Origin: Crocinitomicaceae bacterium
GTDB lineage: Bacteria > Bacteroidota > Bacteroidia > Flavobacteriales_D > Crocinitomicaceae
DNA: 47,580 nt
Assembly: GCA_021740745.1 (NCBI GenBank)
Contig: JAIOZF010000016.1
Coordinates: 1-47,580 of the forward strand
Direction of reading: 5' to 3'
Shown one piece after another: positions 11,191-15,310 of the stretch. The first letter of the stretch is position 1. Every line of letters starts with the position of its first letter. A program made the position numbers and the translations under genes. The notes beneath the pieces were generated by a model, which made no database searches, was not told the DNA's origin, and saw only the letters and a program-made list of their open reading frames with translations.

Positions 11191-11961
11191 ATGAAGCTAT
11201 TTCTTTCTTCTGAGCAGTATATAGATACAAATCATCCATTGGATATTTCACTACCACTTTCCAATACAAGCGAAAATCCGAGAGCATGGTATGTAGATAT
11301 TCCTGAATTTGAACCAGTTAGAGCGAATGGATATATTGGATCCATAAAGGAAGGAGGTTCGGTGAATTTTAGAAATATATTTTTTAATCCTCATGGACAT
11401 GGAACACATACAGAGTGTTTAGGTCATATTACCGAAGAGATTTATTCAATTAATGACACCATGAAAACATTTATGTGTGTCGCCCAACTTGTTTCGATAA
11501 CTCCGAAGAAAAAACTCTTTATGGAAAATGATGAACAAGATGATATGGTTACCATCGACCAGCTGAAATCTCTTGAAATAGCATCAAATGTTGAAGCGCT
11601 TATTTTGCGCACCATGCCGAATGAAGAGTCTAAAAAACACAAAAACTACTCATCAACTAATCCTCCATATTTAGATGTGAAATGCATTGAATTCTTTAAT
11701 AAGCATAAGATAAAACACCTTTTAGTTGATACCCCTTCAGTTGATCGTGAATCGGATGGCGGAGAGTTGGCTTTTCACCATGCTTTTTGGGGTGTGCCAG
11801 ACAATTTGAATTTTGATCGCACAATTACAGAATTAATATTTGTTGAGGATGAAATTGTTGATGGCACTTATATCTTAGATTTGCAAGTTGCTCCATTTGA
11901 AAATGATGCTGCACCTAGTCGACCGGTGTTATACAAAATTCTAGAAACAAAAAAAGGTTGA
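11191..11961 (+). CDS. Cyclase-family (kynurenine formamidase-like) metal hydrolase
   Basis: 256 residues. The family signature HxGTHxD/E appears as HGHGTHTE in NPHGHGTHTECLGH near residue 70. His residues in this motif bind the catalytic metal in bacterial kynurenine formamidase and other cyclase-family amide or ester hydrolases. Further family blocks are LILRTMPN, a segment ending in HLLVDTPSVDRESDGG, and LDLQVAPFENDAAPSRP near the C-terminus. The usual Asp after the second His is Glu here. No kynurenine-pathway gene is nearby, so the substrate is open. Its stop codon lies inside the left arm of the terminator at 11952. Confidence 0.8.
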   Translation: MKLFLSSEQYIDTNHPLDISLPLSNTSENPRAWYVDIPEFEPVRANGYIGSIKEGGSVNFRNIFFNPHGHGTHTECLGHITEEIYSINDTMKTFMCVAQLVSITPKKKLFMENDEQDDMVTIDQLKSLEIASNVEALILRTMPNEESKKHKNYSSTNPPYLDVKCIEFFNKHKIKHLLVDTPSVDRESDGGELAFHHAFWGVPDNLNFDRTITELIFVEDEIVDGTYILDLQVAPFENDAAPSRPVLYKILETKKG

Positions 11962-11983
11962 CCCGCTGATCAACCTTTTGTTT
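11952..11983. terminator. Bidirectional intrinsic terminator
   Basis: Ten-base arms AAAAGGTTGA and TCAACCTTTT (11952-11961, 11970-11979) with an 8-base loop. On the minus strand the stem is followed by a T run reaching seven T; on the plus strand by TTTTGTTT. The TGA stop of the cyclase gene is inside the stem. Confidence 0.75.
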
Positions 11984-12060
11984 AGTAGTAAATTAGTTTT
12001 ATTCGTATTACAACAAACTTTCTAAAGTAGTAAGATAGAAAGTAAAGCGATTATGTACTT

Positions 12061-12243
12061 TAATAAAAACACAGGTTACTTCTTATGGGTAACTAAAGTT
12101 ACCACTCGGAAATAAAAGAGGTGAAAGAACTGTTATACTCTTTAATCAAACTAGAAAATGAAAACTGCCTCTCCAAGCAGCGTACCTCTTTATGCTATTT
12201 CAAAGTTGCCATAAGAAGATAACCTGATTTTTCTCCTTATTTC
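12061..12243 (-). ncRNA. Structured non-coding RNA, 6S-like candidate
   Basis: The minus strand can form a long rod. The outer arms are CAGGTTATCTTCTTATGG (12226 to 12209) and CCATAAGAAGTAACCTG (12088 to 12072): 17 pairs with a one-base bulge. They are extended outward by AAAAA/TTTTT (12228-12232 with 12065-12069). Inside is an open region carrying a small hairpin GGTAACT-AA-AGTTACC (12088-12103) next to the 3' arm. A terminal stem AAAGAGGT/ACCTCTTT follows (12184-12191 with 12115-12122), then a CTGC/GCAG hairpin (12165-12180). A closing stem, central bubble with a 3'-side hairpin, and terminal stem at ~180 nt is the plan of 6S RNA, which binds RNA polymerase. A minus-strand promoter lies at 12250-12278, and a U run follows the stem. 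The structure is solid; the family name is inference. Confidence 0.5.
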
Positions 12244-12249
12244 TTGTAT

Positions 12250-12278
12250 CAAACATACTAAGTTTAATTGTAGCCAAA
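12250..12278 (-). promoter_or_regulatory. Minus-strand promoter in the convergent gap
   Basis: On the minus strand TTTG (12278-12275) and TATGTTTG (12257-12250, exact TAnnTTTG) are separated by 17 bases, within the range known for flavobacterial promoters. The predicted start near 12243 matches the 5' end of the structured RNA. No protein gene begins downstream. Confidence 0.5.
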
Positions 12279-12339
12279 TGGACAAATGAATATTCAGCTA
12301 TCTTAATTGAACAAAACGCTTCTTTGAATTATTTTTACC

Positions 12340-13083
12340 TTAAAGGTTTTCTAAAATTTTGAAGAATACATCTCTTTTTGCAGGACTCAATGGAACTTCA
12401 GAGCCATCTTTCATAACCACGGATCCGCCATTTCCTTTGTCATAACGATCTACATAATCAAGATTAATTAAGTGGGATTGTTGTACACGCAAAAAATTGT
12501 GACTTGTAAGTAATGTTTCATACTCTTTTAGTGTTTTGGAAACTAAAATTTTCTTCCCACCGGCTAGAAAAAACGAAGTGTAATTCCTGTCAGCTTCACA
12601 ACGAATAATAGTATCTAGTTCGACAACATGGACGCTTTCTTGTGTTTTTAAAACAAGTCTTCGTTTTACATTCGGGTTAATATTGTGCTGAAGGGCATCA
12701 AATTGACTCTCTTCTTTCTTTTCGTCAATGGTTTTAATTGCTTTCTCAACAGCATTTTTCAATTCCTCCACATCAATCGGTTTCAGAATGTAATCTAAGG
12801 CACTAAATTTTATGGCTTTAATCGCAAACTCTTCATGAGCTGTAATAAAAATAACTTCAAAGTTTTTGTTTTTGATGCCTTTTATAACATCGAAACCAGT
12901 GCCATCAGGCATTTGAATATCAAGAAAAACAATATCAGGAGAATTATCTTCAATAGATTTTATTCCTGATTCCACGTTGTTTCCACCTTGAAACGCTTGT
13001 ATCTCAAAACCGAAAGAATTAATCATCTTCACAATCAATTCACGAGTTCTATTCTCATCATCTATTACGATTGCCTTTTTCAT
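12340..13083 (-). CDS. LytTR-family response regulator
   Basis: 247 residues. Residues 1-120 are a receiver domain: acidic pair D8-D9, phosphoacceptor D55 in DIVFLDIQMPDG, Thr in FITAHEE and the conserved Lys in DYILKPID. Residues ~145-247 are a LytTR DNA-binding domain (LKTQESVHVVELDTIIRCEADRNYT ... SHNFLRVQQSHLINLDYVD). LytTR proteins bind pairs of short direct repeats upstream of target promoters. The gene follows the sensor kinase gene with a single base between, so the two are cotranscribed and almost certainly partners. A direct repeat at 15333-15360 in front of the kinase gene could be its own site. Confidence 0.92.
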   Translation of the reverse strand: MKKAIVIDDENRTRELIVKMINSFGFEIQAFQGGNNVESGIKSIEDNSPDIVFLDIQMPDGTGFDVIKGIKNKNFEVIFITAHEEFAIKAIKFSALDYILKPIDVEELKNAVEKAIKTIDEKKEESQFDALQHNINPNVKRRLVLKTQESVHVVELDTIIRCEADRNYTSFFLAGGKKILVSKTLKEYETLLTSHNFLRVQQSHLINLDYVDRYDKGNGGSVVMKDGSEVPLSPAKRDVFFKILENL

Positions 13084-13084
13084 G

Positions 13085-15310
13085 TTAAGAGTTTTTAAGA
13101 TTTTCAGCCTTGTATGGAAGCGAAATTAAAACTTTTGTGCCTGTATTCAACTTTTTGTTGAAATCTTCTACAATTAATCGACCTTCCGTACGATACTTTT
13201 TACTCATGTTATCAATTCGATCTTTGGTGATTTTCATCGCCATACTTTTATGATCCTTGCTCTTTTTGTTTAATTCAGCTCCTTTACGACCAATTCCATT
13301 ATCTTCTATGATGACGTTCAGCATGTTATTTTGTTTACTGAATGATATAAGTATGAATCCTCCCTCAATTGTATGAAGCTGGCCATGTTCAATTGCATTT
13401 TCAATAAAAGGTTGTGTAATCATTGGTGGAATTACTGCACCTTCTTCGAATAAAATATCTTCACATTCGATCGAATAATTAAATCGGTCTTCAAATCTCA
13501 ATTTTTGAGTTTCTAAGTACTTTTGAAGGATTTCAATCTCTGTTTCTATCGGGATGAATTCCTTCGGAGAATTTTCCAAAATTAAACGCATCAATCTCGA
13601 AAAGTTCACCAAAAATTTGGAAGAATTCTCCGTATCGTTTTCATAAATATAACTTTGAATTACCGACATGGCGTTAAATACAAAGTGGGGATTCATTTGA
13701 GCCCGCAGAAGGGTTTGCGACATCTCGGCTTCTTTTCTTTCTTGTTTAATTCTTGTTTGGTTCCAACGATAAAAGACAATGATTCCTGCGAGGACACTAA
13801 TAATTAAAAAGCCGATGATAAAGTACATCTGGGAATTATTTCGCAATTGAACGTTTTCCAATTTTGTAGATGTAAAGGCACGTTCCTGACGCTGACGTTC
13901 AATTGAATCTGATTGCATCATAATTAATCGATCTCGCTGCTCAGAGCGATACAACTCACTTAATTCGGCAATTTTAGTGGCTGATTGAATTGTTGTATTA
14001 CTGTCTTGATAGTCCAAGTACATGTCTAAGTATTTCAATGCCTCATTCGTTTTACCGACATCCCGATATACATCTGCAATCTCTCGGAAAGTTGAGTAAA
14101 TCTGATTTTTAGAACCAAATTGCTCTCGAATTTCAATTGATCGTTGCAAATAATTCAAGGCATTCGCATACTTTTTTTGTTTTCGGAATACTGTCCCAAC
14201 ATTATGATAAACACCTGCAATTTTTTCCTTATTTCCAGTTGATTCGTAAAAAACCAATGATTTATTGAAACTACTGGCTGCAAGCGTGTAATCTTTTTGC
14301 TCTCGATAAATCATTCCCAAGATATCGTAAGCTTCACCTAAACCATTGAAGTCATTTAATTCCGATAACAAACGAATGGCTCTTTGGGTGCTTTCAATCG
14401 CTTTTTTGAATTCTTTTCGTCCAAAATAGATAGTTCCTAAATTAGAAAGAGCCAATCCCATCTGGTGATAATCGGCGATTTTTTGAGCATGTTCGTAGGA
14501 TTGCTTGAAATAATATTCAGCATCATTCAAATTGTATATGAGTCGCTGAGATACGCCCAATTCACGATTGTATTTGGCTAAACGAAAACGGTCATTTACT
14601 TCCAACGCCAATTGCAAGCTGATAATGTTTTTTGCTACACTTAGCTCTAATTGACCAAAATAGGCATACACCCTTGCTTGAGTGTTGAAACTTTCAGCAA
14701 GAATACTCTTGTTTGATGTTCGACGGGCAAATTGAATCGACATTTCCGTGTAACGAAGTGCCGAGTCCTTTTTATTGTCGAGCATAAAGTTAAAGGCGAT
14801 TAAGTTCTTCACCTCCGCAATTTTGGCATTTTGCCTTTTCTTCTCAGCAATTTTCTGTGCATTTTTTAAATAGAAATCTGCTGTTTCAAACTCTAATAAA
14901 TTACTGTGATAATTACCAAGATGCTTATAAATCTTAAAAGATACTTCCTCCGTATTTAAACGATTTAAAAACTGCTGACAACCAAGTACATCTCTGAAAT
15001 ACTCTTCTTGTCGCCCCAAAATTTCGTTCACTTCGGCACTGTAAATCAAGGCACTGAACCTTATTGAATCGTCGAAAACACGACTTTTTTGTAACAAAAC
15101 ATCTTTTAAAGAATCGGCGCGGTAAATATTATTCGATTTGTAGTATTCACCAAGAATCAACAAGCGCTTAAAACGTTTCGATTCATCCTTTTCTTTGCGA
15201 ATGGATTCCAATAATTGCTTTTCCCGGGCTGTTTGACTATGACCAACAGTGGGTAATAGGATGAAAAAACTCATCACAATTAAATACAAGATATGTTTGT
15301 TCAATCGCAT
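13085..15310 (-). CDS. TPR-containing sensor histidine kinase (LytS/HisK family)
   Basis: 741 residues. Signal peptide MRLNKHILYLIVMSFFILLPTVGHSQ, then a periplasmic region of about 450 residues of tetratricopeptide repeats (for example ALSNLGTIYFGRKEFKKAIESTQ and GVYHNVGTVFRKQKKYANALNYL). A short coiled segment, one membrane span (~residues 493-512, FIIGFLIISVLAGIIVFY) and a cytoplasmic kinase follow. The phosphoacceptor is His542 in QMNPHFVFNAM of the His_kinase (PF06580) type. The ATPase domain shows QPFIENAIEHGQ and the G-box IEDNGIGRKG. The kinase should autophosphorylate and pass phosphate to the adjacent LytTR regulator. TPR sensors of this plan are common in Bacteroidota; the signal is unknown. 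Confidence 0.92.
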   Translation of the reverse strand: MRLNKHILYLIVMSFFILLPTVGHSQTAREKQLLESIRKEKDESKRFKRLLILGEYYKSNNIYRADSLKDVLLQKSRVFDDSIRFSALIYSAEVNEILGRQEEYFRDVLGCQQFLNRLNTEEVSFKIYKHLGNYHSNLLEFETADFYLKNAQKIAEKKRQNAKIAEVKNLIAFNFMLDNKKDSALRYTEMSIQFARRTSNKSILAESFNTQARVYAYFGQLELSVAKNIISLQLALEVNDRFRLAKYNRELGVSQRLIYNLNDAEYYFKQSYEHAQKIADYHQMGLALSNLGTIYFGRKEFKKAIESTQRAIRLLSELNDFNGLGEAYDILGMIYREQKDYTLAASSFNKSLVFYESTGNKEKIAGVYHNVGTVFRKQKKYANALNYLQRSIEIREQFGSKNQIYSTFREIADVYRDVGKTNEALKYLDMYLDYQDSNTTIQSATKIAELSELYRSEQRDRLIMMQSDSIERQRQERAFTSTKLENVQLRNNSQMYFIIGFLIISVLAGIIVFYRWNQTRIKQERKEAEMSQTLLRAQMNPHFVFNAMSVIQSYIYENDTENSSKFLVNFSRLMRLILENSPKEFIPIETEIEILQKYLETQKLRFEDRFNYSIECEDILFEEGAVIPPMITQPFIENAIEHGQLHTIEGGFILISFSKQNNMLNVIIEDNGIGRKGAELNKKSKDHKSMAMKITKDRIDNMSKKYRTEGRLIVEDFNKKLNTGTKVLISLPYKAENLKNS

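Follow-up and report, generated by a model that had tools for sequence, protein, structure and literature searches.

The 378-base gap between two convergent genes of a Crocinitomicaceae bacterium (11962-12339; positions are those of the window, the whole 47,580-nucleotide stretch analysed) is, on comparative sequence evidence, a stand-alone structured RNA gene on the minus strand, running from ~12245 to 12063. Compensatory changes across its homologues indicate that the gap sequence acts as a structured RNA. We consider it likely that this is a trans-acting regulatory RNA of a new family, which would serve as the effector of a LytTR system, perhaps by pairing its loops with mRNAs. No Rfam 15 family matches the RNA in the window or its diverse homologues, no description of it was found in the open-access literature, and the family appears to be undescribed so far. 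The features of the locus are collected in Table 1.

Table 1. Features of the RNA gene and its neighbours, in the 5' to 3' order of the minus strand.
Feature	Positions	Strand	Basis and remarks
TPR-containing sensor histidine kinase gene	13085..15310	-	Pfam His_kinase 1.8e-21 plus TPR repeats; ortholog 5' of the regulator in nearly all loci
LytTR response regulator gene	12340..13083	-	Pfam Response_reg 1e-22, LytTR 2.7e-16; directly 5' of the RNA, same strand
Direct repeat, distal half TTGTTCAA	12307..12314	-	-69 to -62 from the inferred start; period-21 repeat in 44/47 members
Direct repeat, proximal half ATATTCAT	12286..12293	-	-48 to -41; spacing to the conserved 5' region of the RNA is 42-44 bases in almost every member
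TTTG, -33 element of the original prediction	12275..12278	-	Present in the window; not conserved in the homologue alignment
-7 element TATGTTTG (TAnnTTTG)	12250..12257	-	TAnnTT kept in homologues; consensus and spacing from PMC9723704
Conserved RNA 5' sequence GAAAUAAGGAGA	12232..12243	-	Alignment
P1 closing stem, 5' arm	12209..12227	-	Fold; covariation; swap test z -12
P2, 5' arm	12184..12191	-	Fold; swap test z -16
P3 hairpin GCUGCUUGGAGAGGCAGU, GGAG loop, near invariant	12164..12181	-	In the predicted fold of 43/43 members
P4, loop UUUUCUAGUU	12146..12161	-	Conservation and fold of diverse members
P5, loop UAUAACAG	12124..12143	-	Conservation and fold of diverse members
P2, 3' arm	12115..12122	-	Fold; swap test
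P6, 3'-side hairpin GGUAACUUUAGUUACC	12088..12103	-	Fold; sequence variable, weak in some members
P1 closing stem, 3' arm	12072..12088	-	Fold; covariation
U run after P1	12061..12071	-	Weak here (GTGTTTTTATT); distant members have U6-8; a 183-nt form may end at this run
3' module CUUACUACUUUAGAAAGUUUGUUG	12011..12034	-	Kept in genus alignment
3' module, conserved UAACUUACUACUA-like stretch	11983..12000	-	Genus alignment
Intrinsic terminator, strong	11952..11979	-	Common to the RNA and the convergent gene; likely 3' end of a ~300-nt form
Putative cyclase gene (arylformamidase-like), convergent neighbour	11191..11961	+	Pfam Cyclase 6.9e-16; neighbour position conserved

Results

Promoter and direct repeat

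The original prediction had placed a promoter of its own for a minus-strand RNA in this gap between convergent genes, and both the arrangement (regulator gene on the minus strand, cyclase gene on the plus strand) and the promoter are supported, the latter by a conserved -7 element and a repeat with a 21-bp period. The exact TAnnTTTG element then proposed is the -7 element of Table 1, which is conserved in homologues; the TTTG that had been noted 17 bases further upstream is present, but unlike the -7 element and the repeat it is not conserved. In Flavobacterium promoters, TAnnTTTG spans -12 to -5 (PMC9723704), and this rule would place the start of the RNA at ~12245.

The pattern ATRTTCAT-N13-ATRTTCAT lies upstream of 44 of the 47 non-redundant members of the family (at most two mismatches in 16 positions), whereas repeats of other periods from 16 to 26 occurred in zero to five members and the reversed pattern in none. 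Its distance from the conserved 5' region of the RNA is nearly constant in these members (42-44 bases), and the repeat, with its exact 21-bp period, stands ~45-65 bp upstream of the inferred start; such a period is typical of LytTR sites. The RNAIII promoter is preceded by direct repeats to which AgrA binds (PMC4227749), and RgaR of C. difficile activates the small RNA spoZ via repeats whose critical positions, G-51 and G-72, are 21 bp apart (PMC10602386). We infer that the phosphorylated LytTR regulator binds the putative site here and activates the RNA.

Structure and covariation

In the alignment of homologues, the direct repeat is followed by the TAnnTT of the -7 element, GAAATAAGGAGA, the closing stem and a near-invariant core (CTGCTTGGAGAGGCAG-TTTTCATTTTCTAGTTTGAT-AAGAGTATAACAGTTCTT), and after the core by the second arm, a 3' module (ACTACTTTGGAAGTTTGTTG...TAACTTACTACT) and the terminator. 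The minus strand of the RNA folds at -57.4 kcal/mol (z = -3.84), and none of 200 shuffled sequences was as stable. The complementary arms of 17-18 bases that had been predicted were recovered in this fold as P1, in which 12227-12209 pairs with 12088-12072 over 17 bp with one bulge. The apex is a junction of three hairpins with the loops GGAG, UUUUCUAGUU and UAUAACAG, and it is the most conserved part of the molecule. The hairpin foreseen beside the 3' arm is also present (P6), though variable and weak in some members; since the spacer fold reached a mean z of only -0.67 over the members, P6 was rejected as a conserved hairpin.

Covariation was measured in 32 diverse members. Both sides had changed in 14 of the 19 pairs of P1, and 93% of all cells paired; over the whole structure, 92 cells were counted against 37 expected, a value reached by none of 500 shuffles. 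For each of the five measures used the observed value was likewise reached by 0 of 500 shuffles, and the signal dropped when the partner was slid. Because P2 aligns poorly, an alignment-free swap test was used for it: arms from one genome paired better with each other than with arms taken from another genome (P1, z -12; P2, z -16), whereas two other combinations, serving as controls, gave +0.8 and +2.0. P3-P5 are supported by folding and conservation instead of covariation, since they are almost invariant. Covariation in relatives, the absence of which was to have spoken against the original prediction, is thus strong, but it supports another architecture than the one proposed.

The fold of the plus strand is almost as stable (z = -3.44), so the strand had to be decided by other evidence. 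When P1 was read on the minus strand across the members, 54 G-U pairs were found against 8 A-C pairs, indicating that the minus strand is the RNA.

Extent of the transcript

A U run after the closing stem and a length of ~180 nt had both been proposed. The U run is there, and a 183-nt form is possible. The run is weak in this genome, however, and downstream of it lies another conserved module that closes with a strong terminator (11979-11952), so the transcript probably extends beyond 180 nt to this terminator. The module (11983-12034), which carries ACUACU repeats, separates the structured RNA from the terminator shared with the cyclase gene; it may be part of the RNA, or else part of the 3' UTR of the convergent cyclase mRNA. 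Inspection by eye revealed no conserved small open reading frame in the RNA.

Distribution of the family

A DNA search of 60 relatives detected homologues in the majority of the genus genomes and in some of the family's other genera; in the genus and in two further genera they match most of the RNA at ~77-82% identity. The covariance model built for the RNA, R1, matched 133 of 200 Crocinitomicaceae genomes, usually once per genome, in 10 of the 24 genera sampled; no RNA detectable with R1 was found in the remaining 14. Named carriers include Crocinitomicaceae and Fluviicola metagenome assemblies (L065, L072, L078). Among 395 genomes of the class, R1 gave three weak matches outside the family (E 0.004-0.06), which is at chance level for ~385 genomes. 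In three loci of the genus (L029, L030, L031), only the P3 hairpin and UUUUCUAGUUU are kept and P5 and the usual P1 and P2 sequences are gone, while the direct repeat is perfect.

Linkage to the kinase-regulator operon

Orientation could be established for 25 loci, and in every one the RNA follows an ortholog of the LytTR regulator gene, which is itself preceded by the TPR kinase gene in 24. When only the regulator served as the query of an independent search, 49 orthologs (67-88% identity) were returned; the core motif follows in 41 of these and an RNA detected by the model only in one more (L068), giving 42 of 49 loci. The contig ends in L074, and a recognizable RNA is missing after the regulator in six loci (L053, L059, L060, L061, L070, L081), of which L060 keeps a P1-like stem. 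The cyclase gene is a conserved neighbour with no known role in the kinase-regulator-RNA system.

In one genus, g32, the RNA adjoins the cyclase gene with no operon alongside, and a regulator ortholog (61-65% identity) is encoded elsewhere in the genome, beside its kinase in the genomes inspected. The RNA of this genus often occurs in tandem, as two or three copies with separate terminators beside the cyclase gene (L152:3400-4155, L153, L154, L155). Upstream of these copies, repeat-like ATTCA(T) sequences were read by eye and were not scored. The association between regulator and RNA therefore survives the loss of linkage, since in g32 the regulator is encoded in trans and the RNA copies keep the repeat-like sequences.

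As the RNA stands ~95 bases after the regulator gene on the same strand in most genomes, and P1 with the U run can serve as a terminator, the element might be no more than the 3' UTR of the kinase-regulator mRNA, or its terminator structure. Two observations argue against this: a conserved -7 element and the 21-bp repeat come after the stop codon and before the RNA, and g32 has copies with no adjoining operon. We regard it as very unlikely. A mobile inverted-repeat DNA element, which the long inverted arms and the tandem copies of some genomes might bring to mind, is scarcely credible: the sequence is usually present once and in a fixed place, and its compensatory changes and G-U bias point to selection on an RNA.

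Comparison with 6S RNA

The original prediction had identified the element as a 6S-like RNA, which would here be the 6S RNA of Crocinitomicaceae, binding the sigma-A holoenzyme and mimicking an open promoter. The RNA has a similar length, a closing stem and a 3'-side hairpin, a sigma gene is coupled to it via a shared repeat (see below), and a recognized 6S RNA scored above the cut-off in 0 of 150 genomes of the order. The identity was nevertheless not borne out. The search with the Rfam model RF00013 that had been proposed as a check gave no match in the window and stayed below threshold in the genome, as did RF01685 (6S-Flavo), and diverse homologues matched neither model. The hallmark of the 6S-Flavo relatives, GGCGUGCCG...CGGAUUACA, is absent from the RNA; searched as a pattern in 30 genomes, it was not found in the RNA's own genome, and five matches elsewhere lacked the full hallmark. 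Moreover, the central bubble with a 3'-side hairpin, on which the 6S reading had relied, did not hold: in the computed folds, no more than 5 of 43 members had an unpaired run of at least 8 nt on the 5' side, the mark of a long open bubble (the median was 4), and the conserved part is instead the apical three-hairpin junction, which is foreign to 6S RNA. The LytTR-type repeat at the promoter and the 14 sampled genera without a detected RNA also count against it. On the Rfam scans, the hallmark search and the bubble size we reject the 6S identity, to which we assign a very low probability.

The resemblance of the RNA to 6S RNA (RF00013), 6S-Flavo (RF01685) and Bacteroidales-1 (RF01693) lies in a ~180-nt rod with a closing stem, and it differs from all three in matching none of the models, in having no open central bubble, in its other conserved sequence and in its multi-hairpin apex. 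RF01685 itself gave matches, below the cut-off, in only 2 of the 150 genomes of the order (L103, L104).

Repeat sites elsewhere in the genome

With at most one mismatch, the repeat pattern occurs at 1-11 sites per genome in the genus, compared with 0-2 for the reversed control on either strand. In each of the five genus genomes checked, one of the two RpoD-like sigma genes has it 94-103 bases upstream, and it also precedes the sigma gene in two g39 genomes out of three and in one g32 genome out of two; in g10, g11 and g35 it is degenerate. In the loci L198:2828-2856 (G000 contig 54), L173, L181, L171 and L209-L238, the repeat lies 80-108 bases before one of two RpoD-like sigma genes; it is half-degenerate in some genera. 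Another site lies ~55 bases upstream of a gene for a protein of ~93 amino acids with no Pfam match (L199:2393-2674, L206:1835-2116, L208:2023-2304). Judging by these sites, control by the same LytTR regulator probably extends to the small-protein gene and to one of the two RpoD-like sigma genes.

In L053, from a genome that lacks the RNA, the gene immediately after the regulator is a look-alike of the small-protein gene. Repeat sites also occur ~95-210 bases before genes for large, probably secreted proteins (L202:373-422, L203, L204, L205), with three half-sites in register in L202.

Discussion

We propose that the phosphorylated regulator of the kinase-LytTR system would bind the 21-bp repeat upstream of the -7 element and activate the minus-strand RNA from ~12245. 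The RNA would then act post-transcriptionally, most likely through pairing of its conserved loops with target mRNAs, as do RNAIII and VR-RNA. The same regulator would also control one RpoD-like sigma gene and the small-protein gene, and the RNA would therefore be one arm of a global switch.

The pairing step is the weakest part of this explanation, and we hold the chances for and against it to be even. A variable rod that carries near-invariant apical loops points to either mRNA pairing or protein binding. Among 26 genomes, complements of the P4 loop were not enriched over the reversed control, and the apical region paired with the leader of the sigma gene no better than shuffled sequences did, so that neither result favours mRNA pairing. 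The RNA might instead bind, and titrate, a protein or the ribosomal anti-Shine-Dalgarno sequence through its apical loops, especially the GGAG loop, and its 5' AAGGAGA. The near invariance of the apical hairpins exceeds the apparent need for pairing with a few mRNAs, each RNA has two GGAG motifs, antisense sites are not enriched, and the tandem copies of g32 would fit a dose effect; set against this is the complementarity to the general anti-Shine-Dalgarno, which we take to be a short stretch only. We consider such titration rather unlikely, although worth keeping in mind. Because control would be shared with a sigma gene, a regulator directed at RNA polymerase or sigma and with no 6S descent is also conceivable, in which case one LytTR system would switch on both an RpoD-like sigma and a polymerase-modulating RNA. 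We judge this improbable; if true, the sigma-plus-RNA pair would be a combined switch of global transcription.

LytTR-driven regulatory RNAs are best known from Firmicutes (PMC10602386). Our best reading of the circuit, a LytTR system driving a small RNA, is that it follows a known design, with AgrA-RNAIII, VirR-VR-RNA and RgaR-SpoZ as its analogues, while its sequence, its structure and its phylum are new. With AgrA-RNAIII of Staphylococcus aureus it would share a nearby LytTR regulator gene, direct repeats before the RNA promoter and an RNA effector (PMC4227749), whereas here there is no Rfam match, neither adjoining peptide pheromone genes nor a conserved small open reading frame were seen, and the phylum is another one. 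In VirR-VR-RNA (Clostridium perfringens) and RgaR-SpoZ (Clostridioides difficile) a response regulator likewise activates a small RNA, and the direct repeats of spoZ, 21 bp apart at G-51/G-72 (PMC10602386), have the period found here; the half-site here, ATRTTCAT, and the RNA are different, and here the RNA usually adjoins the operon. Rfp18 of Flavobacterium psychrophilum, a structured small RNA needed for normal protease mRNA levels (PMC9723704), resembles the present RNA as a structured small RNA of Flavobacteriales, a likeness of description and not of directly compared sequences; R1 had no convincing match outside the family in the 395 genomes of the class.

The structured RNA family reported here is strongly supported and absent from Rfam; within a common family of aquatic Bacteroidota it is linked to a single signalling system and probably also to an RpoD-like sigma gene. 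If the proposed reading is true, the LytTR-RNA design reaches Bacteroidota with a different RNA; this can be tested directly in cultured Crocinitomicaceae with the help of the R1 model, the repeat and the near-invariant loops.
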